A program made the position numbers and the translations under genes. From positions 256,292 to 310,673 of the forward strand of contig NZ_JMIY01000002.1 in the NCBI RefSeq assembly GCF_000685155.1: DNA of 54,382 nt, given 5' to 3'. Below the pieces are notes generated by a model. The model saw nothing but the letters and a program-made list of their open reading frames with translations, was not told the origin of the DNA and did not search any database. This stretch comes from Candidatus Methanoperedens nitratireducens (GTDB lineage Archaea > Halobacteriota > Methanosarcinia > Methanosarcinales > Methanoperedenaceae). Positions 1 through 51,536 of the stretch are shown here, piece after piece (the stretch's first letter is position 1; every line of letters starts with the position of its first letter).

Positions 1-131
1 GGAAGATGCAAGGATTAAATTATCCAGACTTTATCCGACTCTTGAGAGCTGACGTGACACTAGATACTAACGCTAATCTATGTTTAAAAACAGTTAAGTT
101 TAAATGGCTAACTTATGAATTGGGAATCACC

Positions 132-140
132 TATATAAAT
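132..140 (+). promoter_or_regulatory. Archaeal TATA box upstream of the YflT-like gene
   Basis: TATATAAAT lies in an AT-rich upstream region about 70 bases before the preferred start of the first gene. At the usual spacing, transcription would begin near 160 and give a leader of roughly 45-50 bases. The remaining sequence from 1 to 131 shows no gene I can support. Confidence 0.5.
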
Positions 141-209
141 TAAAATTATTGAGAGATGATATATTTTAAGTAGAAAGAAGAATGATATTAAATGGGAGTG
201 ATTACAACT

Positions 210-27701: not shown

Positions 27702-29006
27702 GTGGCTGACTCAATAGACCTATATAGCGACAGAGGAGCAAAACTCAAATCAGGCGTGGATCTAAATGCCATAAGCCCGATGAAAAATGCCGCTATTAAG
27801 AAAATAGTCACCGGTATAAAGCGAACAGCAGCCGTTGACTTAGCTGGAATCGAGAAGACCTTAGCAACTTCATCCATAGGCGGTAAGGGTAGAAAGATTC
27901 CAGGAAGAGAGATGAAACTGGACATTGTAAAGAATGCAGACAAGATCCGCAGTAAGGTTGCAGATCTGGTAAAAGTGGAGAACGGCGACGACACCAATGT
28001 TGAATCCTTAAACGGTGGCAAGCAGTTGCTGGTTCAGGTTCCATCCCCCAGAATCGATGTTGCAGCAGAATATGTATCATCATTAACCTGCGCGGCACAG
28101 GCAACCACACTGGCAATAATCGACCAGTTCAATATCGGAATGTTCGATGGGCCAACCATCAAGTCCGCAGTCTGGGGACAGTACCCACAGACACTTGATA
28201 TGGTAGGCGGCAATGTAAAATCAATCGTCGAAATCCCGCAGAAGGACGAGGGCTTTGGCTATACATTAAGAAACGTCATGGCAAACCACCTTGCAGCAAC
28301 CTGCAGGTTCAATGCTATGAACACCGCAGCACTGTGCTCAACCCTTGAGACAGTCGGTGTCTTTGAAATGGGCGATGCACTTGGCATACAGGAGAGGCAC
28401 AGGCTTCTCGCATACTCACATCAGGGCTTGAACGCAAACAACCTTGTCTATGGAACAGTAAAGGAACAGGGCAAGACAGGTACAATCGGTACAGTTGTCC
28501 ATGCAATTGTCGGAAAGGCACTCGATGACAAGATAATCAGTGCAGATAAGAAGTTTGCATCTGGCTATACAACATACAAGACATCTGATGTAGGCAGATG
28601 GAATGCATACTGCGCAGCAGGCACAATGGCAGCAACCATGGTGAACTGCGGTGCAATGAGAGCACCACAGTCAGTATCAGCAGTACTGCTGTACTTCAAT
28701 GATATCGTTGAGAAAGAGACCTCACTACCAGGATGCGACTTTGGTAAGGTACAGGGAGTTGCAGTCGGATTCTCCTTCTTCAGTCACTCTATCTATGGCG
28801 GCGGAGGACCAGGCACATTCAACGGTAACCACGTAACTACCAGACACTCAAAGGGACTTGGAGTGCCATGCGTAGCAGCAGCAGTTGCTCTTGATGCAGG
28901 TGTACAGATCTACAGCCCGGCAAAGACCTCTCAGCTTGTAGGAGATGTCTTCAGCGCAGTAGATGAATTCAGGGAGCCTATAAAGGCTATAGCGGAGGCC
29001 GTATAA
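27702..29006 (+). CDS. mcrB: Methyl-coenzyme M reductase beta subunit
   Basis: 434 residues, full length for McrB. The active-site stretch GFSFFSHSIYGGGGPGTF contains Tyr365, equivalent to beta-Tyr367 of the M. marburgensis enzyme, and NGNHVTTRHSKG follows. MCR catalyses methyl-CoM + CoB to methane + heterodisulfide, reversibly, at nickel F430 in an alpha2beta2gamma2 hexamer. GTG is the start, with AGGAGGT upstream. It is the first gene of mcrBDGA. Confidence 0.98.
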   Translation: MADSIDLYSDRGAKLKSGVDLNAISPMKNAAIKKIVTGIKRTAAVDLAGIEKTLATSSIGGKGRKIPGREMKLDIVKNADKIRSKVADLVKVENGDDTNVESLNGGKQLLVQVPSPRIDVAAEYVSSLTCAAQATTLAIIDQFNIGMFDGPTIKSAVWGQYPQTLDMVGGNVKSIVEIPQKDEGFGYTLRNVMANHLAATCRFNAMNTAALCSTLETVGVFEMGDALGIQERHRLLAYSHQGLNANNLVYGTVKEQGKTGTIGTVVHAIVGKALDDKIISADKKFASGYTTYKTSDVGRWNAYCAAGTMAATMVNCGAMRAPQSVSAVLLYFNDIVEKETSLPGCDFGKVQGVAVGFSFFSHSIYGGGGPGTFNGNHVTTRHSKGLGVPCVAAAVALDAGVQIYSPAKTSQLVGDVFSAVDEFREPIKAIAEAV

Positions 29007-29020
29007 ATTCGGAGAATTGA

Positions 29021-29539
29021 ATGGTAAATACTGCTTCAGTCACGGATAAGCCCATCCAGATACGAGTATTTCCGAAGCGATTATTACAACCTGAGACCGC
29101 TGAGAAACTCTTAAACGAGATTGATCAGACCAAAGGTGTAATAAGAATGCTCCTCAACGGGAAAAATCTACCCAGAAAGGTCACATGCGGACCTGGAACA
29201 GGTGCAGATGTGAACCATCCTGACCGGATGATCATCAATGTTGGAGGATGTGCATTCGAGTTGCATATCATAGTGGGAGAAGTAATAGTTGAAGTGGAGA
29301 ATGAAAGTGCTATGGAAGACGTCAAAAAAGCGTGTGAGCGAGCGCTCCCTTTCCCGTTTGAGTTCAAACGAGGGCACTTTATAAAGAGAAGACCCACACT
29401 GACTGATTACGGCAAGTATGGGTTCAGAAGCAAGACTGATGAGAGAATCAATCTTGAAGATGAACGAATACTCGGCCTGATAGATCCACATGCAAAAGCG
29501 GAAACAAACCTCTGTGTAATTGATACAGAGAAAAAGTAA
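29021..29539 (+). CDS. mcrD: Methyl-coenzyme M reductase operon protein D
   Basis: 172 residues with IQIRVFPKRLLQPETAEKLL, GPGTGADVNHPDRMIINVGG and FELHIIVGEVIVEVE typical of McrD. It is not part of the purified reductase; McrD associates with MCR during assembly or F430 loading. GGAG lies 6 bases before the ATG, 14 bases after mcrB. The next gene is mcrG: only 57 bases separate them, so mcrC, which many methanogens place here, is absent from this operon. Confidence 0.95.
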   Translation: MVNTASVTDKPIQIRVFPKRLLQPETAEKLLNEIDQTKGVIRMLLNGKNLPRKVTCGPGTGADVNHPDRMIINVGGCAFELHIIVGEVIVEVENESAMEDVKKACERALPFPFEFKRGHFIKRRPTLTDYGKYGFRSKTDERINLEDERILGLIDPHAKAETNLCVIDTEKK

Positions 29540-29596: not shown

Positions 29597-30346
29597 ATGG
29601 CTTATAAACCACAATACTACCCTGGCAATACCTCAGTTGCCAAGAATAGAAGAAAACACATGTCAGATGACTTAGAGAAACTGCGCGATATTGCAGATGA
29701 GGACTTAACCGCAATTCTGGGTCACAGAGCACCAGGTTCGGATTATCCAAGTACACACCCGCCACTCTCAGAGATGGGAGAACCAGATGATCCGATAAGA
29801 GAGATCGTAGAACCAACACCGGGCGCAGCAGCAGGCGACAGAGTCAGATATGTACAGTATGCTGATTCAATGTACAATGCTCCAGCAACACCATACTTCA
29901 GATCGTACCACGCAGCAATCAACTTCAGAGGTGTTGATCCAGGCACACTGTCAGGCAGACAGGTTAACGAGATGAGAGAGAGAGACCTTGAAGAGTACAC
30001 CAAGAGACAGTCAGAGACCGAGATAACTGACTGGGGTCTTGCAGGAATGAGAGGCTGTACAGTTCACGGACACTCCCTCAGATTACAGGAAGATGGCGTA
30101 ATGTTCGATATGCTGGACAGGCGCAGACTCGAAGGCGGCAACATTGTAATGGACAAGGACCAGGTCGGCGTACCAATCGACAGAAAGGTCAACCTTGGCA
30201 AACCAATAAGCGAGGCAGAAGCTGCCAAGAGAACATCCATATACAGGGTGGATAACATATCCTTCAGAAGCGACAAGGAAGTAGTCGAACATGTACAGAG
30301 AGTCTGGGAGTTAAGAACCAGATATGGCTTCCAGCCAAAGGCGTAA
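29597..30346 (+). CDS. mcrG: Methyl-coenzyme M reductase gamma subunit
   Basis: 249 residues: YKPQYYPGNTSVAKNRRKHM, LGHRAPGSDYPSTHPPL, YFRSYHAAINFRGVDPGTLSGRQ and GMRGCTVHGHSLRLQEDG are standard McrG features, several of them around the substrate channel. AAGGAGG lies 8 bases before the ATG. mcrA begins 12 bases after the stop. Confidence 0.98.
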   Translation: MAYKPQYYPGNTSVAKNRRKHMSDDLEKLRDIADEDLTAILGHRAPGSDYPSTHPPLSEMGEPDDPIREIVEPTPGAAAGDRVRYVQYADSMYNAPATPYFRSYHAAINFRGVDPGTLSGRQVNEMRERDLEEYTKRQSETEITDWGLAGMRGCTVHGHSLRLQEDGVMFDMLDRRRLEGGNIVMDKDQVGVPIDRKVNLGKPISEAEAAKRTSIYRVDNISFRSDKEVVEHVQRVWELRTRYGFQPKA

Positions 30347-30358
30347 GAGGTGAGTCAA

Positions 30359-32062
30359 ATGGCAGAACCAAGATTTAAGAAAGCAATGGAAACAAAGTAC
30401 GCAAAAGAATGGGGAACCAACAAATGCGGCTCCACAGCCAAGAGCAAAATAACCGATAAGAAGACCAAATACCTCAGACTTGGATATACCCAGAACCCAA
30501 GAAAGGTAGAGATGACAAAGTGCGGAGCAGCAATCACCAAGAAGAGAGGATTGCAGGCGTATGATCCAAAGCTGCACCTTGCCGGTATCCCGATGGGTCA
30601 GAGGCAGTTGACCCCATACACAATATCCGGAACAGATATCGTGTGCGATGGTGACGATCTCCACTTCGTCAACAATGCTGCAATGCAGCAGGAATGGGAC
30701 GATATAAGGAGAACATGCATTGTAGGACTTGACCTGGCACATGAGACTCTTGAGAAGAGATTGGGCAAGGAAGTTACTCCTGAGACCATCAACTACTATC
30801 TTGAAGTCTTAAACCATGCAATGCCCGGTGCAGCTATCGTTCAGGAGCACATGGTCGAGACACACCCTGCATTAGTAGATGACTGCTATGTGAAGGTATT
30901 CACAGGCGATGAAACACTGCAGGATGAAATCGACAAGCAGTTCGTTATCAATATCGACAACGAATTCCCGGCAGAGCAGGCAAAGCAGATCAAAGCAGGC
31001 ATAGGCAAGACCTCATGGCAGGCAGTGCATATCCCGACCATAGTCACAAGGACTGAGGACGGACCAGGCACAAGCCGCTGGATGGCAATGCAGGTCGGTA
31101 TGACCTTTATCAGCGCATACCACATGTGCGCAGGTGAAGCAGCAGTCGGTGAACTTGCATTCACAGCCAAACACGCAGGACTTGTAGAGATGAGCGATAT
31201 GATCCCTGCACGCCGTGCAAGAGGACCAAATGAGCCAGGAGGATTATCCTTCGGCCACATGGCAGATATCGTCCAGACAAGCAGAAAGACCCCGGATGAT
31301 CCAGTCAATGTAGCATTACAGACAGCAAGTGCAGCAAGCATGCTGTACGACCAGATATGGCTCGGTGGCTACATGTCAGGCGGTGTGGGATTCACAATGT
31401 ATGCAACACCAGCATACACCAATGATATCCTTGACGACTACGTGTACTGGGGCGCAGACTATGCACAGAAGAAGTACGGCAAGTTCGGAAGCGCAAAGGC
31501 AACCATCGAGACCGTGAAAGATATCGGCACAGAGGTAACCCTGTACGGTATTGAAGCATACGAGAAGTACCCAACAACACTTGAGGACCACTTCGGCGGC
31601 TCACAGAGAGCTACAGTGCTCGCAATTGCAGCAGGTGCCTCAACAGCAATGGCAACCGGACACAGCAATGCCGGTCTATCAGCATGGTATCTATCCATGT
31701 ACCTCCACAAAGAGGCATGGGGCAGACTCGGATTCTATGGATACGATCTGCAGGATCAGTGCGGTGCAACCAACGTCTTCTCACTCGGCTCTGATGAAGG
31801 TGCCATTGGAGAGGTCAGAGGTGCTAACTACCCGAACTACGCAATGAACGTAGGTCACCAGGGTGGATACACCACGGTAGTCTCAGCAGCACATGCTGGC
31901 AAGAAGGATGCATTCTGCGTGAACCCGCTGGTCAAGAGCTGCTTCGCAGATGACCTGGTCAACTTTGACTTCGCGGATCCAAGAGGAGCATTCGGCAAGG
32001 CAGCACTCAGAGAATGGGATCGCTGCGCCGGTGAGAGAGCATTCGTTATCCCAGCAAAGTAG
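30359..32062 (+). CDS. mcrA: Methyl-coenzyme M reductase alpha subunit
   Basis: 567 residues from the ATG at 30359, with AGAGGTG 7 bases before; the in-frame GTG at 30350 overlaps that site. Key residues are intact: the F430 nickel ligand Gln162 (VVQEH-type VQEHMVE), Tyr338 (GYMSGG) and Tyr460. Sites modified in characterised MCRs are kept: His272 (N-methyl), Arg286 (C-methyl), Gln416 (C-methyl), Gly461 (thioglycine), Asp466 and Cys468. Whether they are modified here cannot be seen. The sequence is of the canonical methane type, not the divergent alkane-type. Codon use resembles highly expressed genes. Confidence 0.98.
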
Positions 32063-32161: not shown

Positions 32162-32407
32162 ATGGCAGAAGTTAAAAGACAGCCCAAGGTACCTGGTGAT
32201 GTAAAATGTATGTTCTGTGATGGGACAGGGAAACACCAGGATGAGACATGTATTGTCTGTGATGGAAAAGGAACAGTGTATGTTGTTGACTCAACAAGAA
32301 AGTGTCAATGGTGCAAAGGCAGAGGTTATCTGATGCCTAAAATTCCATGCACCACTTGCGGCGGAACCGGTTACACAAGACCTGTTAATAAACAGCGCCT
32401 GTTTTAA
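32162..32407 (+). CDS. DnaJ-like CxxCxGxG zinc-finger mini-protein
   Basis: 81 residues with four CxxC-type knuckles: CMFCDGTG, CIVCDGKG, CQWCKGRG and CTTCGGTG. This is the cysteine-rich module of DnaJ, without the J domain. It should bind two zinc ions and may act as a small chaperone or thiol protein. It lies 100 bases after mcrA but beyond the terminator, so it probably has its own promoter. A role in MCR folding is only suggested by position. Confidence 0.8.
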   Translation: MAEVKRQPKVPGDVKCMFCDGTGKHQDETCIVCDGKGTVYVVDSTRKCQWCKGRGYLMPKIPCTTCGGTGYTRPVNKQRLF

Positions 32408-32483: not shown

Positions 32484-32792
32484 CTATTTTCTGTAACTGT
32501 ACTTCTCACTTAGCTTCTGATAGATATAGTCGTGTGCACTGTTCACTGCCTCTAATTCTCCGCGCAGCACCAGGAGATTATCAGATTCTAGATCTATGGT
32601 TTTAATAGCACATTTCCGGGTGGTTACTTCCAGATTAAATTTGTCTACTGCCTCCATTATTATTTTATGGGGTAATCCAGGCGGTAGAACTAAGTCGTAT
32701 ATACCTGCAAGTGCTTTCTCTCTCTCATCAACAACATCTCCAGCATCTTCAACAAATTCATCTCCTATATATTTATTTTCCTTATCAATCAT
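32484..32792 (-). CDS. Conserved-looking small protein of unknown function
   Basis: 102 residues. After an acidic head, LVLPPGLPHKIIMEAVDKFNLEV and SDNLLVLRGELEAVNSAHDYIYQKL form a regular alpha/beta pattern like a ferredoxin-fold nucleic-acid or ligand-binding domain. No family is recognised. The ATG at 32792 is preferred, with GTGAT before it; a GTG at 32801 is the alternative. It is convergent with the zinc-finger gene and divergent from the B12/radical-SAM gene. Confidence 0.55.
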   Translation of the reverse strand: MIDKENKYIGDEFVEDAGDVVDEREKALAGIYDLVLPPGLPHKIIMEAVDKFNLEVTTRKCAIKTIDLESDNLLVLRGELEAVNSAHDYIYQKLSEKYSYRK

Positions 32793-32849
32793 AGAAATCA
32801 CTTTTTGATATGAAATCTTTATTAGGTCACATAAAGCTTATGGTAACCT

Positions 32850-35006
32850 ATGCTTACAAAATTACTATTCCCGCCCCAATGGATCCCAACCCAGCCTTAT
32901 TTAAGTCTCCCGTCTCTCTTCGCCTTCCTGAAGGCCAATTATTGCGATGTAGAGCAGATGGATATCAACGTATCCTTTTATGATGATCTGTTAAGTAAAC
33001 AGGGACTCTCTGCCTTCTATGAGAAAGTTTATTCGAAATTCCAGGATCTTGAGTCCCAGAAAGAGCTGTCACCCCACCTTCAGAAACAGTACACGGCACT
33101 GAGCAGTTCTGTTCTTTTTGGCGAATACATTATTGATGAAACAGATAATGCAAAAAAGATTTTAAGGGATAAGAAGGGTTTCTATAATGTTAAAGAACTA
33201 TTTAGAGCTTTTAAAATACTTGAGCTTGGGCTTAAGCTTGTCTCCTCGGCTTATTATCCTACAAACCTGACTTTTCATTCATATGATATGCGCTACTCAT
33301 GCCGCTCAAGTAAAGCTATTCTTGCTTCGATTAATGATCGGGAAGAGAATCTCTTTATTGATTATTTCGAGAAAGAGACAGTCCCTAAAATCCTTGAAAA
33401 CAGGCCTGACCTGATAGGTATCTCTATAATCAATACCAGTCAATTAATTCCAGGGCTAACGCTTGCAAGTCTTATTAAAAGAGCAGATGAGAATATACAT
33501 ATAAATATAGGGGGCAGTGTTTTCACGCGTCTGATCAATGAGATAAGCAAAAATAATGAGCTTTTCTCTATATTTGATAGTGTGATCGTACATGAGGGTG
33601 AGACCGCTTTATTGAATCTTACAAAACATCTGAGCAATGGACTTGACATTGAAGATATTCCCAACCTCATTTATAAAAAGGGATCCGGGATCAGGATCAA
33701 CAAGCTCAGTTCTGAGGGAGAGGATATTAATTCTTTACCCTCTCCATGCTTTGATGGTCTTCCATTCTCATTATATTTCTCACCTGAGCTCATCCTTCCT
33801 GTGCTTTCATCAAGGGGATGCTACTGGAAACGCTGTACCTTTTGTGACCATAGTTATGGTTACTCAGGGAATTACAGGCCCAGGAATGTTGATCTGTTAT
33901 ATAATGATATCAAGACACTAAAAGATAGATATAAAACAAGCTTTTTCACGTTTCAGGATGAAGGCGTCTCTCCAAGATTGATAAGTGCATTATCTGATAA
34001 GATAATAGAGAATAACCTTGATATATCATGGTTAGCAGATTCGAGATTTGATCCAGTATTTTCTGAGGAGTTTGGCAACAGGATTGCTGATGCGGGATGT
34101 AAGATGCTGTATTTTGGACTGGAATCTGCTAATAACAGAATCCTGTCATGCATGGATAAAGGTATAAAGAAAGATAATGTATTAAATATCTGTAGATACT
34201 GCGCTGATGCGGGAATCTGGACACATCTTTTTTTAATATTCGGATTTCCTACAGAGACCCGCCATGAGGCAAGAGAGACAGTAGATTTTATCCTGCATAA
34301 TAATAAAATAATCCGCTCAATGTCGTTTGGCAGTTTCCAGCTTACAAAGCACTCAAAAGTGTATGAGAACCCGCCATTATTTGATGTTAAGACAATAATT
34401 CGAAATGAGAATATAGATCTGTCGCTCTGGTATGATTATGAAACCACCCGTGGAATGTCAAAGAAAGAGACGGATGAGTTGATACAGGAATTCTATAATG
34501 AGCTTTCTTTGCAGTACAGGGATTTCTCTATCTGGAGCAATCTTGATAGGGAACATCTTTTTCTTTATATCTCTCACTATAAGGGATCTAAGGATGAGCG
34601 GGGTTTATCTGAACTGATTGATAGGATACAGAAAGAACAGATAAAGAAATACACAACAACTGATACCAGAAATAATGGAATATATCCGGTTCTCAATGAA
34701 GGAGTTTTTATAAGAACGTTTAATTTCAATCTCGCGCAAATAATTCATACCATGCTGGCAGGGGACTCACTGGAGAACAGGCTGCAGAAAGATAGAACAA
34801 ATGTGCTGTTTGATACCAATAATAACAGGGTATTTACTATAACCGATTTTGCAAAGGACGTGCTGGACAGGAGTAGTGGAGAATTGGATATATCAGAAAT
34901 AATTGAGGTAATCAGAGAGAAGTATCAGATGCCTTATACTGAGGCCGAGTCTAAGTGTAAGAGCTTTTTGAAAGGATTATTCGAAAAAAATATAGTTTAT
35001 TATTGA
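32850..35006 (+). CDS. B12-binding radical SAM protein with C-terminal PqqD-like (RRE) domain
   Basis: 718 residues. The N-terminal ~300 residues resemble the B12-binding domain of BchE-like enzymes (PDLIGISIINTSQLIPGLTLA, HINIGGSVFTRL). The radical SAM motif is RGCYWKRCTFCDHSYG (CxxxCxxC). A barrel follows with FTFQDEG, ADSRFDP, GLESANNRI and FLIFGFPTET. The last ~80 residues (LFDTNNNRVFTITDFAKDVLD, then SGELDISEIIEVIREKY) look like a PqqD/RiPP-recognition domain. Such enzymes methylate unactivated carbons; the RRE implies a peptide substrate. It lies 800 bases from mcrA, whose Arg and Gln C-methylations need enzymes of this class. Confidence 0.78.
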   Translation: MLTKLLFPPQWIPTQPYLSLPSLFAFLKANYCDVEQMDINVSFYDDLLSKQGLSAFYEKVYSKFQDLESQKELSPHLQKQYTALSSSVLFGEYIIDETDNAKKILRDKKGFYNVKELFRAFKILELGLKLVSSAYYPTNLTFHSYDMRYSCRSSKAILASINDREENLFIDYFEKETVPKILENRPDLIGISIINTSQLIPGLTLASLIKRADENIHINIGGSVFTRLINEISKNNELFSIFDSVIVHEGETALLNLTKHLSNGLDIEDIPNLIYKKGSGIRINKLSSEGEDINSLPSPCFDGLPFSLYFSPELILPVLSSRGCYWKRCTFCDHSYGYSGNYRPRNVDLLYNDIKTLKDRYKTSFFTFQDEGVSPRLISALSDKIIENNLDISWLADSRFDPVFSEEFGNRIADAGCKMLYFGLESANNRILSCMDKGIKKDNVLNICRYCADAGIWTHLFLIFGFPTETRHEARETVDFILHNNKIIRSMSFGSFQLTKHSKVYENPPLFDVKTIIRNENIDLSLWYDYETTRGMSKKETDELIQEFYNELSLQYRDFSIWSNLDREHLFLYISHYKGSKDERGLSELIDRIQKEQIKKYTTTDTRNNGIYPVLNEGVFIRTFNFNLAQIIHTMLAGDSLENRLQKDRTNVLFDTNNNRVFTITDFAKDVLDRSSGELDISEIIEVIREKYQMPYTEAESKCKSFLKGLFEKNIVYY

Positions 35007-35057
35007 GATTTCGTTATCTCTATATACTCATAAATTAATTTAAAATTGGGTATTCGA

Positions 35058-36233
35058 ATGAAGACATGTATAATGTGCGGCGGCGAGGGCACAAGGCTCA
35101 GGCCGCTTACTTTTGACAGGCCAAAACCGACGATTCCTCTATTAAATAAACCATCGTTAGTACATCTGGTTGAACATCTGGCTATGGAAGGTTTTAATGA
35201 TATCGTGCTTACACTGGGATATCTTGGTGGCGAAATAGAGGCAGCGCTCGGCGATGGCAGTATGTATGGTGTGCATATCGAATATGTACATGAGAAAGAA
35301 AAAATGGGGACTGCAGGAGGAGTAAAAAATGCAGAAGAGTTATTCGAAGGTGAGCCATTCCTGGTCGTGGGAGGAGACCATGTCATGAACCTCAGGCTCA
35401 GGGAATTCTTCCGTTTTCATGAGAAAAACGATGCTCCTGTGACTATAGGCTTAATCCCGATCGATGATCCGCGCGAGTATGGTATCGCTGATCTGGATGT
35501 CAATAACAGGATAACCCGCTTCTTTGAGAAACCGGGCCCGGGTGAGATATTCAGTAACCTTGCAAGTACGGGCATATACGTATGCGACCCGAAGGTCCTG
35601 AAATGGATACCAGGGGAGAAATATGATTTTGCAAAAGACCTTTTTCCGCAGATCATGAAAAAGGGCGAGAATATCAATGGCTTCCTTGTACACGGGAGAT
35701 GGACAGATATAGGTAACCCGCAGGCTTACAGGGAAGCATGCAGATGGATGCTTGAGCAGATGCCGGGCACAAAGATATCAGGGCGCCTTAATGTTAAGGA
35801 TGCAAAGGTGACAGGTCCAATCGATCTTGGACATGATGTATATCTGGGTTCAAATTCTGCTATCGTCGGTCCGATAGTAATTGGAGAGAACACCACGATC
35901 GGAGATAATGTATTGGTCGGCCCATATACATCCATCGGCTCAAACTGCAAGATCGGCAACAACTCAAGAATTCTCTCTTCTTATATCTTTGATAACATTG
36001 AGATAGGCTCTAACACCATGGTCTCAGGTGCAATTATCGATAATGCCACTAAAATAAAAGATTCGTGTATCCTTGAGACAGGCACGGTCATTGGCCCCAG
36101 GGTCATAATCGGGGATGAGGTAACGGTTAATTCACCCGTAAGGATATGGCCTGAGGTCAGAGTAAAAAGTGGAACCAGGGTCAGTGAGAACCTAGGAAAT
36201 GAGGACTTCGACAACGAGATAAAGGGCTCCTAG
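35058..36233 (+). CDS. Sugar-1-phosphate nucleotidyltransferase with left-handed beta-helix
   Basis: About 391 residues. The nucleotide-binding signature is MCGGEGTRLRPLTFDRPKPTIPL, followed by FLVVGGDHVMNL and WTDIGNPQAYREA. The C-terminal third consists of hexapeptide repeats (GPIVIGENTTIGDNVLVGPYTSIGS). It activates a sugar phosphate with NTP, in the manner of glucose-1-phosphate thymidylyl/uridylyl- or mannose-1-phosphate guanylyltransferases; the sugar and base cannot be read from sequence. The ATG at 35058 is chosen over a TTG at 35046. It probably supplies donors for surface glycans. Confidence 0.88.
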   Translation: MKTCIMCGGEGTRLRPLTFDRPKPTIPLLNKPSLVHLVEHLAMEGFNDIVLTLGYLGGEIEAALGDGSMYGVHIEYVHEKEKMGTAGGVKNAEELFEGEPFLVVGGDHVMNLRLREFFRFHEKNDAPVTIGLIPIDDPREYGIADLDVNNRITRFFEKPGPGEIFSNLASTGIYVCDPKVLKWIPGEKYDFAKDLFPQIMKKGENINGFLVHGRWTDIGNPQAYREACRWMLEQMPGTKISGRLNVKDAKVTGPIDLGHDVYLGSNSAIVGPIVIGENTTIGDNVLVGPYTSIGSNCKIGNNSRILSSYIFDNIEIGSNTMVSGAIIDNATKIKDSCILETGTVIGPRVIIGDEVTVNSPVRIWPEVRVKSGTRVSENLGNEDFDNEIKGS

Positions 36234-36236
36234 GAT

Positions 36237-36923
36237 TCAAGTCCCAGGGGATTCCAGTATCTCTACAGAGCCGTCTTTTTTTCCTATATAAATAACATCA
36301 ACACCTGTGAATATTCCATGCTCAACAACGCCGATACATTTTGAAATAGCCTCATCAAGATAAACAGGATCGTCTATTGCTCCAAAATCAGCATCCATAA
36401 TGAGATTCCCGTTATCCGAGATAACAGGTCCGTCTTTATTTATGCCCATACGCAGCTCTGCCCTTCCTCCGAGTTCTGCTATCTGCTTTACTACGAGTAT
36501 TCTTGCAGAGGGTATGACCTCAAGCGGAACAGGGTGGCTCAGAATATCTGTGCATTTTGAATCATCCACTACAACAACAAACCGCCGGGAGGATAGAGCC
36601 ACTATTTTTTCCCGCGTATGCGCGCCTCCTCCGCCTTTGATTGCAGTGAAACTGGCTATCTGATCAGCGCCGTCAATATCAATATCAAGAATGGGGTGCT
36701 CATCCAGGGTGGTAAGGGGAATGCCGTGTTCTGCTGCTAAATATGCTGACTGGTAGGATGTGGGTACACCCATGATCCTGAGGCCTGAAGCGACACGTTT
36801 TCCAAGTTCTTTTATTGCATAGGCAGTAGTTGAGCCTGTGCCAAGTCCGACGACCATTCCGTTTTTTACAAGCTGGGCGGCCTGCTCTCCTGCAGCCTGC
36901 TTTGGATTATTACGATGGGTCAT
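36237..36923 (-). CDS. rpiA: Ribose-5-phosphate isomerase A
   Basis: About 228 residues: [16 protein letters not shown] (phosphate loop), [10 protein letters not shown] with catalytic Asp, [15 protein letters not shown] with catalytic Glu and Lys, and [11 protein letters not shown]. It interconverts ribose-5-phosphate and ribulose-5-phosphate. Starts at 36932 or 36923 are possible. The gene is convergent with the nucleotidyltransferase (3 bases between stops) and divergent from the SPASM radical-SAM gene. Confidence 0.93.
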
Positions 36924-36990
36924 AGTGCGCATCTATGTCTGAGATGATAAAAATACTTGTGGATGATGTCGCCAGAAAGACTGAGTTAAA

Positions 36991-37000
36991 TTTAAATACT
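36991..37000 (+). promoter_or_regulatory. TATA box inside the upstream reading frame of the SPASM gene
   Basis: TTTAAATACT sits about 46 bases before the ATG at 37037, predicting transcription start near 37020. AAGGTG (37027-37032) is then 4 bases before that ATG. This makes 37037 more likely as the start than the ATGs at 36935 or 36944. Confidence 0.55.
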
Positions 37001-37036
37001 ATTAATAGTTTGAGGAAGGTTAAAACAAGGTGTTAT

Positions 37037-38182
37037 ATGGCTTATCACGTGATGCTGATCCCTACTCTGGGCTGTCCATCTAAGTGTAGTTATTGCTGGA
37101 GTTCAGAGGAAGGATCTCCGGTAATGAGCATTGAAACCATCAAAGAAGTGGTTAAATGGCTTAAGAATTTTCGGAGTGAACCGGTTACCTTTACTTTCCA
37201 TGGTGGGGAACCGCTTCTTGCAGGTGCTGATTTTTACCGAAAAGCGCTACCTCTGCTGGCTGAGGGTTTAAGTCATCTGAAGCCGGCTTTTGCCCTGCAG
37301 ACCAATCTCTGGAAAATCACCCCGGAACTGGCACAGATCCTGGCTGAATATAATATTCCCATTGGTTCCAGTTTAGATGGACCGCAGGAGCTTACTGACC
37401 TGCAGAGAGGAAAAGGTTACTACGAGAAGACCATGCGGGGCTATGAAATTGCTAAAGCTTCCGGTCTTAAGGTGAGTTTTATCTGCACCTTTACATCCTA
37501 TTCTGTAAAGTTCAGGGAGGATATTTTTAATTTTTTCCTTGAAAATGGTTTAAATCTTAAATTGCATCCCGCACTGCCATCATTACGTTCCGAAGATCCT
37601 GGAAAATGGGCGCTTGATCCGGAAGAGTATGGGGAATTGTTAGTTTATCTTCTGGATAAATACCTGGAGAACATGAGCAGGATTGAACTTATGAATATTG
37701 ACCACCTGTGTAAATGCGTGTTCACCAACCGGGGCACTGTCTGTACCTTCGTGGATTGTATGGGGGATACGTTTGCAGTGGGACCTGATGGGAGCATATA
37801 TCCCTGCTATCGCTTTGTGGGGATGCCGGATTATGTTATGGGCAATGTTCATGACCATCCGAACATGGAAGATCTGGCTCAATCTCCCGCATGGAAGCTC
37901 ATGTTCCAGTTCAAGGAATATGTAGACCAGAACTGCGGGGAATGCAACTATATCAAATTCTGCCGGGGAGGATGTCCCTATAATGCCATAGCACCTACTG
38001 AGGGTGAAGTAAAGGGCGTCGATCCCCACTGTACTGCCTATAAGAGGATATTCAAAGAAATAACAGAGCGGTGGGAGAAGGAGTTTTTAGGAGGCTCTGG
38101 TATGCCAATGTTTGGGTTTCCATCTGAACCTGCGAGGGATGCCAGGCCGGGTGTGATGGCGATAATGCTTAAGCGGCTCTGA
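37037..38182 (+). CDS. Radical SAM/SPASM peptide-modifying enzyme, methanogen type
   Basis: About 381 residues from the ATG at 37037. The radical SAM motif is LGCPSKCSYCWSS; the barrel has TFHGGEPLLAG and LQTNLWKI. The SPASM region has TVCTFVDCMG, GSIYPCYRFVG, NCGECNYIKFCRGGCPYNA and DPHC, enough for two auxiliary [4Fe-4S] clusters. It resembles the putative peptide-modifying SPASM family described from methanogens (Mhun_1560-like). The substrate peptide is unknown; the next frame downstream (38208) is a possible but weak candidate. The frame could extend upstream to 36935, but the TATA box and ribosome site argue against it. Confidence 0.82.
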   Translation: MAYHVMLIPTLGCPSKCSYCWSSEEGSPVMSIETIKEVVKWLKNFRSEPVTFTFHGGEPLLAGADFYRKALPLLAEGLSHLKPAFALQTNLWKITPELAQILAEYNIPIGSSLDGPQELTDLQRGKGYYEKTMRGYEIAKASGLKVSFICTFTSYSVKFREDIFNFFLENGLNLKLHPALPSLRSEDPGKWALDPEEYGELLVYLLDKYLENMSRIELMNIDHLCKCVFTNRGTVCTFVDCMGDTFAVGPDGSIYPCYRFVGMPDYVMGNVHDHPNMEDLAQSPAWKLMFQFKEYVDQNCGECNYIKFCRGGCPYNAIAPTEGEVKGVDPHCTAYKRIFKEITERWEKEFLGGSGMPMFGFPSEPARDARPGVMAIMLKRL

Positions 38183-42653: not shown

Positions 42654-43909
42654 AACAGTAGTTGGCAAGGTAAAGTTTATCATCACACTATACTTATCTT
42701 TTCAATATGTTATCGTCCACTGAGATGAGGTTATACCAAACCCTCAAGAAGAAGTTCTATCCGATGTTTGAATTCAAGCAGAGACATAATGTCACTACAG
42801 GCAGACAAGATAATCTTTTAGACTGCATTGTTCATGCAGCCATAACTGATGATTTTATAGAGAACAGTACGCAAATCCTAAAATCGAGAGAAAAGGATGT
42901 ACCTGCTCCGAGAACAATAAGATATCACTTAGAAAAGCTTGAAATCGATGAAATTCTCAGGCAAGAGAGCAAAATTTCTGAAGAACTGTATCGAATGGTA
43001 GAGAAACAGAGATGGTTTGTGAATAAGGTGGACCTCTCAATTGATACACATGACTGGATGTACTACGGCGATACAGATGATGAGATGGTTCTTGGCACAC
43101 AAGCAAAAAATGGTACCTCCTACGCATACAAGTTTGCAACTATAAACGTTGTTGAGAGAGGGATCAGGTTTACACTGAAAGCACTTCCAATCAGGAATTA
43201 CTCAGAGATTTGCAATGTAGTGGAGGAGCTTATCAAATACGCTATGCAAAAAGTGAAGATTAAAAGGATTTACCTCGATCGTGGATTCTATGAAGTTCCA
43301 ATTGTTAGAATGCTCAAGAGATTGGGCGTACATTTTGTAATCCAGGCAAAGAAAAGTACAGGGATAATGAAGGTTATCGAGAAGAATAAAGATAAAAAGG
43401 TAATTGCAGTGGACTATAAAATGAAGAGGAAGCGAAAAGCACCTTCAGGGAAAGAAGATGTTAAACTGTTTATCATTCCGCACAGACGAAAGAAAAATGA
43501 GCGTGTATGCTTTGTAACAAACCTGGATGTAAATGAGAAAAATGCTAAGAAGTATGCTGAGGGTTACAGGAAGAGATGGGGCATAGAAACAAGCTACAGG
43601 GTGAAGAAGGAAGCTTTCAGACCAAAGACGACATCGAAGAACTATGCTATCAGATTATTTTTCTTCCTTTTCTCCGTATGCCTCTATAACCTGTGGATTT
43701 TGATTAATATCGGTCTGGGACTAGCACTCGACAGGAGAAAGCCAGAAAAACCATTAGTCACGGCGAAAATGTTCGGAAATTTGTTTATCGCTGCTTATGA
43801 TATTGGGGGATTAACTTAGCTCGTCCAATAGTCCTTATTTCTTCGATACTTGCTCTATGGGATATCATCGTGAAAATGATTATATTTGTCTACATTGCCA
43901 ACTACTGTT
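42654..43909 (+). mobile_element. ISH3/IS4-group insertion sequence
   Basis: A 1256-base element bounded by 19-base terminal inverted repeats: AACAGTAGTTGGCAAGGTA at 42654-42672 and its inverse with one mismatch at 43891-43909. It contains one intact transposase gene (42707-43819). I find no convincing target-site duplication in the flanks, so it may be an old insertion or have had its flanks rearranged. Confidence 0.88.
42707..43819 (+). CDS. ISH3-like DDE transposase
   Basis: 370 residues, uninterrupted. The DDE core is visible: SIDTHDWMYYG (first Asp), KRIYLDRGFYEV (second Asp) and YRKRWGIETSYRVKKE (Glu in the Y-R-E signature). This is the IS4 superfamily, close to ISH3-type archaeal elements. 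The intact frame and good terminal repeats suggest it can still move. It starts 35 bases inside the left end of the element. Confidence 0.9.
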   Translation: MLSSTEMRLYQTLKKKFYPMFEFKQRHNVTTGRQDNLLDCIVHAAITDDFIENSTQILKSREKDVPAPRTIRYHLEKLEIDEILRQESKISEELYRMVEKQRWFVNKVDLSIDTHDWMYYGDTDDEMVLGTQAKNGTSYAYKFATINVVERGIRFTLKALPIRNYSEICNVVEELIKYAMQKVKIKRIYLDRGFYEVPIVRMLKRLGVHFVIQAKKSTGIMKVIEKNKDKKVIAVDYKMKRKRKAPSGKEDVKLFIIPHRRKKNERVCFVTNLDVNEKNAKKYAEGYRKRWGIETSYRVKKEAFRPKTTSKNYAIRLFFFLFSVCLYNLWILINIGLGLALDRRKPEKPLVTAKMFGNLFIAAYDIGGLT

Positions 43910-44512: not shown

Positions 44513-45439
44513 TCATATCACGAACCCGGTCTCGGATCTGGGCAGTGCCTTGATCAGAATAAAGTCCCTCATCTTTGATGGAAGCACCCGCGCCACTTCC
44601 TTCATAGTTACACCTTCTACGAACTTGATATTCTCTATCTGCTCATGGTACTCCTTATACGGAAGCTTGACACGCGCACCGTTCATCTGTAAAGTGATGG
44701 GAAGGGGATGCAGGCTGTCGATGATCTCCTGTACCTGCTCTTCGATCTCTTTCTTGATTCGCGGCGGTGCTACAGCCAGCGGGTCCTTTGCGATCTCCAT
44801 TCGCGTATTATCCAGGACATTACCGATCACATCCGCAAGTTTATCCAGCGTTCGCAGCTCCTCGGAATGGCGCATATGGTGCAGGATACGGCCAAAATTC
44901 CCCACATAAGCAGTGGCATTGGGGACATCCTCGGTCTTAAGTTCAGGCGCTCCTGTGACTATGATCGGTATCTCTATCCCTTCGTAGAATCTCTTTGATT
45001 TCTCGATGATACAGTGCTCGTAATTCCCAAGTACGAACACAGCAACATCGTGCTCGTTAATAAGATCGCGCTCATAAGCAGTAATCTGGCATATCCTTTT
45101 TCCCACACCCCTTGCCAGGCCGATCATGTTGGTCTTGGCTCCCTTTTTCCTCAGGAATTCAGCCACATCGCAATCAAGATGTGGAAGATGATGATATGCA
45201 AGAGTGGGTGCCACAGTTGCGATCTCAGTCCCTGTAAGGGGTGCGCGTGTGACCTTGCCAAGAAGATCTCTTGCTTTATTCTCCACGATTTCCATATCGT
45301 TTATCGGGACAAGCATCAGCAGCACAACGCCGGTCTGCAGCACATTCTTCTGGAGGATATAACCTCCCAGGTCTTCCACAAGCTCCACCATGTGGTTGTG
45401 CTTATATACGCCGCCCTCATACATCACAGGTTCAAGCAT
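44513..45439 (-). CDS. mmp7: Methanogenesis marker protein 7
   Basis: 308 residues starting MLEPVMYEGGVYKHNHMVEL. It matches Mmp7, a relative of McrC found in methanogens and ANME archaea. Work on MCR activation places Mmp7 in a complex with McrC, Mmp3, Mmp17 and component A2 (AtwA) that reduces the nickel of F430 with ATP and low-potential electrons. Conserved cysteines include HLDCDVAEF, KRICQITAY and EHCIIEKS, possible cluster ligands. It overlaps mmp17 by 8 bases and is the last gene of the cluster. Confidence 0.88.
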   Translation of the reverse strand: MLEPVMYEGGVYKHNHMVELVEDLGGYILQKNVLQTGVVLLMLVPINDMEIVENKARDLLGKVTRAPLTGTEIATVAPTLAYHHLPHLDCDVAEFLRKKGAKTNMIGLARGVGKRICQITAYERDLINEHDVAVFVLGNYEHCIIEKSKRFYEGIEIPIIVTGAPELKTEDVPNATAYVGNFGRILHHMRHSEELRTLDKLADVIGNVLDNTRMEIAKDPLAVAPPRIKKEIEEQVQEIIDSLHPLPITLQMNGARVKLPYKEYHEQIENIKFVEGVTMKEVARVLPSKMRDFILIKALPRSETGFVI

Positions 45440-46037
45440 TTTCTTCTCTCCGCAGGGTATCCATCATATCTTTTCCCTTCTTTATCCACTCGGGTTTGAG
45501 TGTATCCTCTGAGGCAACAAACAGAACATGTGAAGTTGAGAGCTCATGTTTGCGCACCCTGAAGCCTTCAGGTATAATGCGAAGCGCAATAGCATCGATC
45601 AGGCGGTCAAGGATCTCCTGCTGGCGCTCTTCGATTACAAGTTCACGCAGGGCATCCACTTCCTTTACGGGATCGGTCTTTACAACTATTACTTTCTTAT
45701 CAGGCTGTTCGACATTCTCCTTGCCGTATCTTTCCCAGAGCTTATTAAGCAGTTTTACAGTATAGACCTCCCTCTCCAGTTCTATCCTCACCTCATCCCT
45801 GCCAAGAGACCCCATCTCTACTCTGGCAAAATCCTTAAGTTTAATAGCAGGCGTTCCGAGGCGAAGTGTGGCAGCGAATATAAAAACCGATTCAACCGGG
45901 TCCATAAAAACTTTTAACCTCCCTATGGCCCTGTTCAGAGAAAGATCCGCCAGATTATCCTGTATCAGAATGCGGGTGGCTTTTGCTCCAACAGCATCCG
46001 CGCATTCAACAGTTATTGTATCAAGCTGCTCCATCAT
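45432..46037 (-). CDS. mmp17: Methanogenesis marker protein 17
   Basis: 201 residues beginning MMEQLDTITVECADAVGAKA. The pattern AATLRLGTPAIKLKDFARVEM and IALRIIPEGFRVRKHELSTSHVL fits Mmp17, a component of the MCR activation complex. Its precise activity is not known. It overlaps mmp7 by 8 bases and begins 6 bases after mmp15, so all are co-translated. Confidence 0.88.
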   Translation of the reverse strand: MMEQLDTITVECADAVGAKATRILIQDNLADLSLNRAIGRLKVFMDPVESVFIFAATLRLGTPAIKLKDFARVEMGSLGRDEVRIELEREVYTVKLLNKLWERYGKENVEQPDKKVIVVKTDPVKEVDALRELVIEERQQEILDRLIDAIALRIIPEGFRVRKHELSTSHVLFVASEDTLKPEWIKKGKDMMDTLRREENA

Positions 46038-46043
46038 ATCCTC

Positions 46044-47288
46044 TTATCTTGAAATGAATCCTGATACCAGTAAAGCCGCCCCGACCGCTCCTATGTACTG
46101 TGCATTGTCGGGAACAATGACTTTCACTTTAAGCAGTTCCTCAACTGCCCTTGGTAATCCTTCAATAAGAGATGTGCCGCCCACCATTATCACAGGTTCT
46201 TTAACATCAACCTCCTGTAGCTGCTGTTCGAATAATTGCTCTGCAACGCTGTGGCATGCCGCTGCTGCCACATCCTCCGGGTTACCTCCCGCGGCCAGTG
46301 AATTAACAAGAGACTGGATACCGAAGACAATGCAGTAGCTGTTCATTTTAATATTCTGGGCTCTTCCTTTTATTGCAAGGGCGCCAAGCTCTGTTATGCT
46401 CACTCCGAGCCTTTTTGCAGTCATCTCAAGGAACCTTCCTGATGCACCTGCGCATATCCCGCCCATTGTGAACATTCCGGGAATGCCATCGAGGACAGAG
46501 ATCGCTTTATTATCCATACCGCCAATATCAAGAACAGTGGCAACCCCTTTTTGCATATCTGCAAGATAAACCGCGCCTTTTGAGTTGACTGTGATCTCCT
46601 CCTGGATGAGGTCTGCCTTAAAATGCTCACCTACAAGGAAGCGGCCATACCCTGTCGTACCGAGTGCCTGTACTTCTTCGCGTTTAATACCTGCCTCTTT
46701 TAATGCATCGTTATAAGCTTCTTCAGCACTATCAAGCACTTTTACTGTGGGTACCCATCCTTTGCCGATTATTTCATTATCCCGCATTATAACTGCTTTT
46801 GTCGTTGTTGAGCCAGAGTCTATGCCTGCTGTGAGGCCACTCTGTTTCTCTCTTGCAAGGAGACTCTTTCTGCGCGCGGTCGTGGTAAGTGCTTCCATCC
46901 TTGTAAGAAGGGTTCCTGCAGTCGTTCTTTCTGTGAATGAATAGCTTATGACCGGAATACCTGTTTTCTCGTGGATATATCTGCGTACCTCACTCCTGAC
47001 AAGAGCTGCTTCTGCACATCTGAAGCATGTTGCAACAAAAACAGCGTCAACATGCACTTTCCCTGTCACGATAGCTTTTGCCCTTGCCATCATGAGTTTG
47101 AGATCAGGGCTTGCAACTTTAAGTCCGAAATCTTCTTCGATTGCTTCTATATCCAGAATATCTATTTCAGGATAGACCATTACTGCATTGACCTGCTCTA
47201 CAGCGGAATCTATTTCTTTCTGTATACCGCTGTACTCTGCGCCGCATGAGAGCTGGGCTATCCTTACAGGATTTTCAGTGTTGCTCAT
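46044..47288 (-). CDS. mmp15: Methanogenesis marker protein 15 (BcrA/BadF-type ATPase)
   Basis: 414 residues. After a ~130-residue N-terminal extension comes an ASKHA ATPase: [41 protein letters not shown] and [14 protein letters not shown], with a second cysteine in SYCIVFG. BadF/BcrA activators use ATP to drive low-potential electrons from a [4Fe-4S] cluster, so Mmp15 is a plausible ATP-dependent electron donor for MCR activation (inference). Extra Cys pairs lie in ATCFRCAEA. It overlaps mmp5 by 14 bases. Confidence 0.9.
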
Positions 47289-47730
47289 TTTTTTTCTCCG
47301 TGAGGGATTTCAGGAATTCTGAGATCTTATATACAAACTCTTTCGCCTCATCCTCGGTTGATGGATAATCCAGTTCAAGTAAAGGGATTTTTTTTGCCCG
47401 TATCAGGAAATTGACTAATTCATTTGTCCTTGCACATCCCATACAGCCAAATGGTATCACAGGATCTCTGATTATGATAGCCGCTTCTGCGCTCTGGATA
47501 AGCGGACCAAATAGCGACATCCTTCCTCTTACACCGGACGGCACCTCCACAGCAGCATACTTCAGGCCGATCTTGGGGTCCTCAGGCGTGATATTAAGGG
47601 GCGGCGAATCAAGTCCCTGCGCCCTGACTTTTTTTCCGATCTCCTGCATTAGAGCAAGGGGTTCATGCCCGAACCGCTCAACTAAGTCTGAGAGAATAAG
47701 ACTGTTTGTCGGGTAGATAAATACCTTCAT
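47275..47730 (-). CDS. mmp5: Methanogenesis marker protein 5
   Basis: 151 residues: [20 protein letters not shown] and [14 protein letters not shown], the latter with a CxxC. It matches the Mmp5 family, restricted to methanogens and relatives; function unknown. The CxxC could hold part of an iron-sulfur cluster. It overlaps both neighbours (4 bases with mmp6, 14 with mmp15). Confidence 0.87.
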
Positions 47731-48152
47731 TGCGATACCTCTGATTCAATTATTTCCTTAAGCTTCTCCACATCAAGTTTTTTAATTCGCTGCTTATGTC
47801 CTGGAACCTCACCTCTATCCAGTGCTCTCAGAGCCGATGCTATATGAGGTAGCATCCTGTCTTCTGTCTCAAGATTATGGAATCCGGGTCTTGCGCCACC
47901 GCGTCTTGTTGCTCTGCAGCGGTAGGGCTCACCAGGTGCAAGGCCCCGCTCTTTAATGAAGATGCCGTAGGGATCAATCTTACGAATATCGTTCAATAGC
48001 GAATTCACCACTGAGCGTTCTCCTGATACCATAGCTCCAAAGCAGGTCTCCTTTATCATCACATCTGCATTTGATTCATATAGCTTTATAACAATATCGC
48101 TTGGCAGTACCTTTGTGGAATTGATTACAATCATCTTTGTTATGGTGTCCAT
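47727..48152 (-). CDS. mmp6: Methanogenesis marker protein 6
   Basis: 141 residues: MIVINSTKVLPSDIVIKLYE, KETCFGAMVSGE and GEPYRCRATRRGGARPGFH. It matches Mmp6, a methanogen-specific family of unknown activity. The Arg-rich RCRATRRGG loop suggests an anionic ligand or cofactor. The start lies 3 bases after the mmp3 stop and the gene overlaps mmp5 by 4 bases. Confidence 0.87.
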   Translation of the reverse strand: MDTITKMIVINSTKVLPSDIVIKLYESNADVMIKETCFGAMVSGERSVVNSLLNDIRKIDPYGIFIKERGLAPGEPYRCRATRRGGARPGFHNLETEDRMLPHIASALRALDRGEVPGHKQRIKKLDVEKLKEIIESEVSQ

Positions 48153-48154
48153 TA

Positions 48155-49669
48155 TTAGACCTCTCTAATGTAAACTACATCTCCGGCCTTTACCCCTCTT
48201 AGCCTATCGGGATCAATTACCTTTCCTATAATGTTCGTACATTCGAATTTTTCACCTGTTGGACCGTACCTGTCATCATCAGTAAGCCTGACACCTATCA
48301 TGCCGTAACGTTTGGCCGCCTGGTTTGTAACCCCGATATCTCCTGCTCTGGCTGTGGTCTTCGGGATATTCTCTGGATTTATCTCCTTATATGCTTCAGC
48401 TTCTTTTTCAGACCTGAACAGGTATGTGTTCTCGTATGTATAGAATACAGGCAGAGGCCCCAGCGGCCGATCTTTAAGACGCAGAGAATGCCTGAAGAAA
48501 TCAAGTGTCTTGGGTGCGAGATCATAATAGAAACTGACATCAATTATTTTATCAGATCTTACACCAAGTCCTGTCACAATGCCCTCACCTATGATCTCGA
48601 TTGTGGTATCCGGGTCCTGCTCAACTATGATCGCATCCTCACCAGTGTATCCTCTTTTCTCCAGTCTCAATCCCCTTGCACTTAGCATCTCTTCTGCCTG
48701 CTCAAAGCTCATTCCAAGGATCATGACCTGCTCAGGATTGGATAGAGCTGTAAGCCTGCTGCCATGTTCTGCTATCCTTATGAGTTCAATCCCCGCAGAT
48801 ACATGCCCTACCACGCTGTGTACAGCACTTGATGTCCTGTCCTCTTTATAGATATATGCTCGACCGTTTCCCAGGCCATCGGTGCGAACTGCTACTGAGC
48901 CCTCAGAACGGGCCTCCCAGTGCTCATAAGGACATCCCTCACCTTTTAGTGCATCATCAGAGATGAACGAGTTTGAGAACGTATCAATATTGAATATTTT
49001 CTTCCTGATAACTGCAAGAAAATGCTCTGCGCCTTCAGGTGCCTCGTTGACAAGGTCCACCTTAAAATAAGTGAATATCCTCATCCCATCCTCAAGCATG
49101 GTGCTCAGATCATGGGTTGAAACCTTATCAAGAAGAGTTTCCCATCGTACGACAGGCTCTATTTTTATTAACGTATCCCCCTGTTTGAGCTTTGCGATAA
49201 TATCCTTACCGCTTATAACCTTCCCGACCAGAGCATCCTGTGGGCTGCCGTAATCCGAGATATGCCTGTTTTTTGAGAACATAAGATATGTATTCTTTGC
49301 ATCATATCCCCCTGTCCCAAAGAAAATATCATAGCGATTATATTTTTTTTCTGCTCTCTCTGGAAGTATATCTGTTTCAACAGGTCCAAACGCAACAGAG
49401 TTATTGGTCTCCCAGTGCGCTTTTATATTTAAAAAATTATGACTGAACCTGTTCCATATCATTGAGTCGCCGATCAGTTCAATCCTGAATTCCCCTTTTG
49501 TGGTGAATACCCTGTATTCGGATGTCGCTTCTTCTTTCTGGGTACCGGATTTTAAGATCCCTGCTGTAGTGCCTGGAATATAGAATGTTTTACTGAGTTC
49601 TATGGCATCTCTCAGGTTTGAACCGTTTTTTAATTCTAGTCTTTGCCCATTAATCTCTATTGTGATCAC
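48155..49669 (-). CDS. mmp3: Methanogenesis marker protein 3
   Basis: 504 residues from a GTG start. It has an N-terminal ubiquitin-like MITIEINGQRLELKNGSNL, a cyclophilin-like beta region (SVAFGPVETD, IFFGTGGYDAKNTYLMFSK) and a repeated C-terminal part. It matches Mmp3, a member of the purified MCR activation assembly, where it is thought to act as a structural or peptidyl-prolyl isomerase-like factor. It lies 22 bases after atwA. Confidence 0.87.
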   Translation of the reverse strand: MITIEINGQRLELKNGSNLRDAIELSKTFYIPGTTAGILKSGTQKEEATSEYRVFTTKGEFRIELIGDSMIWNRFSHNFLNIKAHWETNNSVAFGPVETDILPERAEKKYNRYDIFFGTGGYDAKNTYLMFSKNRHISDYGSPQDALVGKVISGKDIIAKLKQGDTLIKIEPVVRWETLLDKVSTHDLSTMLEDGMRIFTYFKVDLVNEAPEGAEHFLAVIRKKIFNIDTFSNSFISDDALKGEGCPYEHWEARSEGSVAVRTDGLGNGRAYIYKEDRTSSAVHSVVGHVSAGIELIRIAEHGSRLTALSNPEQVMILGMSFEQAEEMLSARGLRLEKRGYTGEDAIIVEQDPDTTIEIIGEGIVTGLGVRSDKIIDVSFYYDLAPKTLDFFRHSLRLKDRPLGPLPVFYTYENTYLFRSEKEAEAYKEINPENIPKTTARAGDIGVTNQAAKRYGMIGVRLTDDDRYGPTGEKFECTNIIGKVIDPDRLRGVKAGDVVYIREV

Positions 49670-49691
49670 GTGTCACCTTTGGTTGCCAGTT

Positions 49692-51320: not shown

Positions 51321-51536
51321 GTTTTTATTCACCACTGGTAAGTCATATGACCTCATTAATCCGCTTTATTATAAATATTTGCATTTAACGTGAAAAACCG
51401 TTATAGATCATCGATCTTTACGGCGATTTAAGATAGATTAAGCAGTACATAAATATAACGATAATACGTTACATTATGGATCACATATCCATATTTTTTA
51501 GTAATATTTATCCCATCTCCTTCTAACTAGATTCCT

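Follow-up and report, generated by a model that had tools for sequence, protein, structure and literature searches.

Among the closest described systems are the radical-SAM methyltransferases of MCR. Mmp10, the MCR arginine C5-methyltransferase, adjoins mcr in many methanogens (PMC5943407), and MgmA, the MCR glutamine C-methyltransferase, is mcr-linked in some lineages and has been expressed in Methanosarcina acetivorans (PMC11796369). A 2025 study described 3(S)-methylhistidine at gamma-His159 in two ANME-2d MCRs with atomic structures, those of BLZ2 and Vercelli, and reported it as the first in a natural protein (PMC12413448). The mark lies beside the F430 cofactor, was called the first modification of any MCR gamma chain and is missing from the MCR of ANME-2c, where all the others of the seven modifications of ANME-2d MCR recur (PMC12413448). 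The installing methyltransferase was left unknown, and chemistry like that of Mmp10 or of methyl-Gln formation was expected (PMC12413448). No enzyme was linked to the methyl-His of Methanoperedens in the open-access journal papers searched.

Here, a gene behind mcrA was analyzed in a stretch of 54,382 nucleotides (the window) from the 3.2 Mb genome of 'Ca. Methanoperedens' (ANME-2d; genome G000). Its product is a radical-SAM protein with a predicted N-terminal cobalamin-type fold, and it is probably the C-beta methyltransferase of McrG gamma-His159 that gives the 3(S)-methylhistidine of ANME-2d MCR; the link is correlative. The predicted fold of the enzyme matches the B12-radical-SAM fold of MgmA, whose substrate is MCR, and its gene is mcr-linked here. 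However, the MgmA structure has 417 residues and no RRE, whereas the enzyme has 718 aa with an RRE; the two have no close sequence relationship, and the target Gln of MgmA is missing from Methanoperedenaceae. Mmp10 belongs to another family and is encoded separately in G000. Compared with the known B12-radical-SAM methylators of MCR, the enzyme is most likely novel in its RiPP recognition domain and in its different subunit and residue. The features are listed in Table 1.

Table 1. Features of the mcr locus and of the candidate methyltransferase (positions in the window).
Feature	Position	Strand	Basis or remark
mcrB	27702..29006	+	position in mcrB-D-G-A block
mcrD	29021..29539	+	position in mcrB-D-G-A block
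mcrG, proposed substrate protein	29597..30346	+	89% identical to BLZ2 McrG; phmmer top match 9qr1_C
McrG Asp145-Trp146	30029..30034	+	specific to Methanoperedenaceae; non-family genomes and G006, G025 have Cys-Pro
McrG His159 codon CAC	30071..30073	+	aligned with 3(S)-methylhistidine of 9QR1 and 9QQT
McrG His159 peptide sequences			TVHGHSLR region (tryptic); GCTVHGHSLRLQEDG
mcrA	30350..32062	+	nearest solved structures are ANME-2d MCRs 9QQT/9QR1
McrA Met at 2-methylglutamine (MgmA) site	31397..31399	+	McrA alignment, codon check
Small DnaJ-type zinc-finger protein between mcrA and enzyme gene	32162..32407	+	81 aa; linked to mcr, not to enzyme
sORF105, conserved 105-aa protein between mcrA and enzyme gene	32484..32801	-	stays with mcr when enzyme gene is elsewhere
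Predicted B12-dependent radical-SAM enzyme with C-terminal PqqD/RRE domain	32850..35006	+	718 aa; Pfam, AlphaFold2 model, orthologs
B12-binding Rossmann fold, first part (residues 1-47; motif FPPQWIPTQPYLSLPSL)	32850..32990	+	AlphaFold2 model, alignment conservation; boundary by inspection
Helical insert between B12-binding parts	residues about 48-165		enzyme protein
B12-binding domain, second part (residues 170-260)	33357..33629	+	PF02310 match 175-257; AlphaFold2 model
Radical-SAM core (about residues 315-483)	33792..34298	+	PF04055 320-481; AlphaFold2 model
[4Fe-4S]-binding CX4CX2C motif, C324/C329/C332, CYWKRCTFC	33819..33845	+	codons checked; alignment
PqqD/RRE domain (residues 645-716)	34782..34997	+	PF05402 24.8 bits; bbb-aaa fold, block pLDDT 86-95

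The preliminary description had placed the open reading frame at 32850-35006 and 0.8 kb from mcrA; the coordinates, the forward strand and the distance (787 bp) were all borne out. Radical_SAM (PF04055) matched the enzyme with 64.8 bits against a cut-off of 29.5. The cluster motif C324-x4-C329-x2-C332 (RGCYWKRCTFCD), invariant across 22 orthologs in the alignment, has the spacing CX4CX2C in place of the CxxxCxxC first read. The C terminus proved PqqD/RRE-like as had been supposed, both by PF05402 (residues 652–716; 24.8 bits, cut-off 23.4), which scored 35.9–41.3 bits in some orthologs and relatives, and by the predicted bbb-aaa fold. A B12-like N-terminal domain is suggested by the predicted fold; at the sequence level, PF02310 scored 29.8 bits, slightly below its cut-off of 32.1. 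The AlphaFold2 model, built on 45 relatives, had a pLDDT of 90.6 and a pTM of 0.89; the pLDDT was 69.7 with close orthologs alone and rose to 90.6 when distant relatives were added. The top matches of this model in Foldseek against the PDB were OxsB, TsrM, TokK and MgmA (9ccb). The enzyme is predicted to transfer methyl from methylcobalamin.

The cut-off was reached for none of the NCBIfam models. The best scores were those with PhpK (TIGR04479; 115 bits, cut-off 600) and ApyD (NF050148; 113 bits, cut-off 750), families whose substrates and contexts differ, and with rSAM_ocin_1 (TIGR03975; 111.5 bits, cut-off 281.85), a RiPP maturation radical-SAM C-methyltransferase that was also the top-scoring model for four relatives (L114, L115, L118, and L122). 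Unlike rSAM_ocin_1, the enzyme has a fused RRE, and a RiPP precursor was not found at its locus. MgmA (TIGR04014) scored 62 bits against a cut-off of 360, and the Mmp10 (TIGR03278) matches in G000 did not include the enzyme, the true Mmp10 being located at C3. Placement inside the lipid- or tetrapyrrole-modifying families, which the preliminary description had considered, was not found: the enzyme lay in its own clade, and PhpK, ApyD and rSAM_ocin_1 scored above HpnJ (78 bits, cut-off 578) and BchE (50 bits, far under the cut-off). In a quick tree with long branches outside the ortholog clade, the orthologs formed a single clade (SH-aLRT 100) apart from MgmA, nested in a wider clade with RRE-bearing relatives and tail-less Nitrospirota relatives.

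When 85,000 species genomes were scanned for two peptide patterns, an approach that may miss some relatives, sequences with 33–40% identity turned up outside the family in Bathyarchaeota, Methanosarcina sp. UBA11020, Dehalococcoidia, Nitrospirota and other groups. The fusion of a B12-radical-SAM protein with a PqqD tail, at first called unusual, is not unique, as the Bathyarchaeota, Dehalococcoidia and UBA11020 relatives have the tail (weak in UBA11020, 17.8 bits). The UBA11020 relative belongs to a RiPP-like cluster (L115:4427-9965) with a radical-SAM/SPASM maturase, a second B12-radical-SAM and a 76-aa Os1348-family NHLP-clan protein (57 bits, cut-off 40). A RiPP-type ancestry of the enzyme is likely because of this cluster and the RRE-bearing relatives in its clade. 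In G030, a second, divergent relative (L113:5989-7977; 38% identity, PqqD tail) adjoins an aminotransferase and an aldehyde dehydrogenase, and the true ortholog in G031 lies beside a similar gene pair. The Dehalococcoidia relatives (L116:843-5686 and L117:866-8145) are located behind genes that appear by eye to be membrane cytochrome-like or molybdopterin-oxidoreductase-like, and other protein substrates are possible for them.

Orthologs of the enzyme, with 63–92% identity, were found in 25 of the 34 Methanoperedenaceae genomes, counting G010 (gene split by frameshifts) and G020 (internal stop). The McrG sequences of G017 and G003 were identical to 9qr1_C and 9qqt_C except for the modified residue 159, which indicated at the sequence level that these genomes are BLZ2 and Vercelli. 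Both encode an ortholog directly behind mcrA, and the two orthologs share 91% identity. The profile search gave no match in G037 (a methanogen), G034 (sister family f2), G039 and G055; in G059, assigned to ANME-2c (f3) through the match of its McrA to 9qm5_A, it matched nothing but the MgmA ORF, at 29 bits. Among the three MCRs of known state (PMC12413448), the enzyme is thus present where the mark is known and absent in ANME-2c. Within the family, the gene was lost in the lineages G022, G006, G025, and G004. Decayed C-terminal pieces remain behind sORF105 in G022 and G006, about 23 codons are left in G025, and G004 has no remnant.

The order mcrA-zinc finger-sORF105-enzyme was conserved on the same contig in 18 Methanoperedenaceae genomes, and in G013, at the end of a contig, the enzyme gene comes after sORF105. 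The gene is located away from mcr in G008, G012, and G031, and its position relative to mcr cannot be told in G020, G029, and G032. The window genes downstream of it (35046-38182) held their position in no other genome but G024, a near relative, which indicated that the mcr linkage of the enzyme outlasted its other linkages. One of them, 2 kb behind the enzyme gene in a position common only to G024 among the loci read, belongs to the TIGR04083 family of radical-SAM/SPASM 'peptide-modifying' enzymes (36935-38182, +; 702 bits, cut-off 300). The gene of a conserved Cys4 zinc-ribbon protein of 60–67 aa (L068:8390-8593 and similar sites, about 14 loci) often converges on the enzyme gene at its 3' end; in the window genome the zinc-ribbon gene is at C2:328035 instead. 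Elsewhere, the window contains an MCR-associated cluster (44513-51356, -) with methanogenesis markers 7, 17, 15 and 5, Mmp3 and component A2, and an ISH3-family transposase-like ORF (42707-43819, +; 183 bits, below the cut-off of 225).

The preliminary description had proposed that the enzyme modifies MCR at the Gln416 or the Arg286 equivalent of McrA. Action on MCR is supported by the mcr linkage, the distribution and the co-occurrence with ANME-2d C-methylation, and the two McrA targets had to be given up. The MgmA-site residue is Met in the window McrA and in all family McrA read, and MgmA at cut-off was found in 0 of the 34 Methanoperedenaceae genomes. Methyl-Arg is explained by Mmp10, which is encoded separately in G000, G003, G017, G022, G006, and G004. 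In BLZ2, Vercelli and G006 the Mmp10 gene is close to mcr, which showed that MCR-modifying methyltransferases are indeed drawn to this locus. Since the remaining marks are shared with ANME-2c, 3(S)-methyl-His is the sp3 C-methylation lacking an enzyme, and with the other methyl marks excluded, gamma-His159 of McrG is the best target. The idea that methyl-His compensates for the lost methyl-Gln (PMC12413448) was rejected: f2 McrA also has Met, yet the f2 genome G034 is without the enzyme, and thus the Gln loss and the enzyme gene are not coupled. Genome G050 carries a full MgmA-type gene (C224:1358-2638; 650 bits, above the cut-off) with Met at the target Gln site of its McrA; this gene is contamination or a relic. 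A variant McrA segment replaces ATPAYTNDI beside the F430 pocket in G006, G007, G010, G022, G023, and G025, and G007 and G023 hold both McrA types.

In the PDB sequences 9QQT and 9QR1, position 159 of the gamma chain holds the modified residue X, to which His159 of the window McrG aligned in identical context (GCTVHGHSLRLQED). In the McrG alignment, five of the 249 columns separated all gene-bearing genomes from all those outside the family, and Asp145-Trp146 made up two of them. This pair is Cys-Pro in the gene-loss genomes G006 and G025, which form one clade inside the genus on the MCR tree, so the change counts as one event. When gene loss was tested against Asp145-Trp146 in pairs, only three independent pairs were available, which put significance out of reach; the covariation with the enzyme gene is a lead. 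Evidence for the assignment to His159 comprises the mcr linkage, the lineage distribution, the co-occurrence with the ANME-2d-specific C-methylation, the exclusion of the other methyl marks, the fold match and the five McrG columns. Against it stand a distribution that follows one lineage, the few covariation events, the three genomes that carry the gene away from mcr, the retention of Asp-Trp without the gene in G022 and G004, the relative in a RiPP-like cluster, and a second B12-radical-SAM family of similar breadth (L205, see below). With somewhat less confidence, we also favor a history in which the mcr locus of Methanoperedenaceae captured a B12-radical-SAM/RRE enzyme of RiPP type that now C-beta-methylates McrG His159, Asp145-Trp146 having co-evolved with it.

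Several other explanations were weighed. The chief doubt about the assignment comes from a 475-aa B12-radical-SAM of the L205 family, which might install methyl-His159, leaving the mcr-linked enzyme with another MCR-related role or an unrelated one. This family occurs in 26 of the 34 family genomes, including both proven organisms (BLZ2 and Vercelli), and in three genomes that lost the mcr-linked enzyme (G022, G004, and G025); its best match in ANME-2c has only about 25% identity. However, it is not mcr-linked and has BchE/HpnJ-like scores. It is also absent from G000, which would be decisive only if His159 were known to be methylated there. The two families are of similar breadth, so that distribution alone does not separate them, whereas linkage does and the gene-loss lineages can; we regard installation by L205 as unlikely. 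A third shared B12-radical-SAM family (L207-type, HpnR-like) occurs in seven genomes. The mcr linkage would fit any MCR target, and the enzyme might act on another residue or subunit than gamma-His159, but this appears quite improbable: the other ANME-2d MCR marks recur in ANME-2c (PMC12413448), which is without the enzyme gene, and methyl-Arg already has Mmp10.

Maturation of an unseen ribosomal peptide, the other proposal of the preliminary description, would make the site behind mcrA incidental. The RRE tail fits such a role, and the one distant relative in a RiPP-like cluster, in UBA11020, makes a peptide substrate possible. Nevertheless, a conserved precursor-like ORF was not found at the enzyme locus. 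The 81-aa zinc finger and the 105-aa ORF, tried as RiPP precursors, remain with mcr when the enzyme gene moves, and the 62–67-aa zinc ribbon convergent to the enzyme, tried as a partner, is present in 30 of the 34 genomes with or without the enzyme. The mcr linkage was also kept while other neighbours changed, and we give peptide maturation little credence. A search for Os1348-type precursors in four genomes gave no match, and its control gave no match anywhere either. A small-molecule or lipid substrate, as for HpnJ, HpnR or BchE, would agree with the weak HpnJ and BchE scores, far below the cut-offs; the better scores of the peptide- and P-methyltransferase models, the separate clade, the RRE tail and the mcr linkage make it extremely unlikely.

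For the methylation of McrG His159, we infer the substrate, the residue, the mechanism and the role of the RRE as follows. The [4Fe-4S] cluster on C324, C329 and C332 would cleave SAM, and the resulting 5'-deoxyadenosyl radical would abstract a hydrogen from the C-beta of His159. The carbon radical would then accept methyl from methylcobalamin in the N-terminal Rossmann domain, and a second SAM would remethylate cob(I)alamin. The RRE tail may bind a stretch of free, not yet assembled McrG, in which the His159 loop is exposed.

If true, protein 3(S)-methylhistidine would have its first assigned enzyme and the MCR gamma chain its first modifying enzyme, and a peptide-recognition domain of RiPP type would be used on a subunit of a large central metabolic enzyme. 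With one named gene and the gene-loss lineages as natural controls, the role of the methyl-His becomes testable; His159 is predicted to be unmethylated in G022, G006, G025, and G004. Faithful heterologous production of ANME-2d MCR would then also require this enzyme. MCR, the bearer of the mark, is the enzyme with which nitrate-reducing ANME archaea capture methane.
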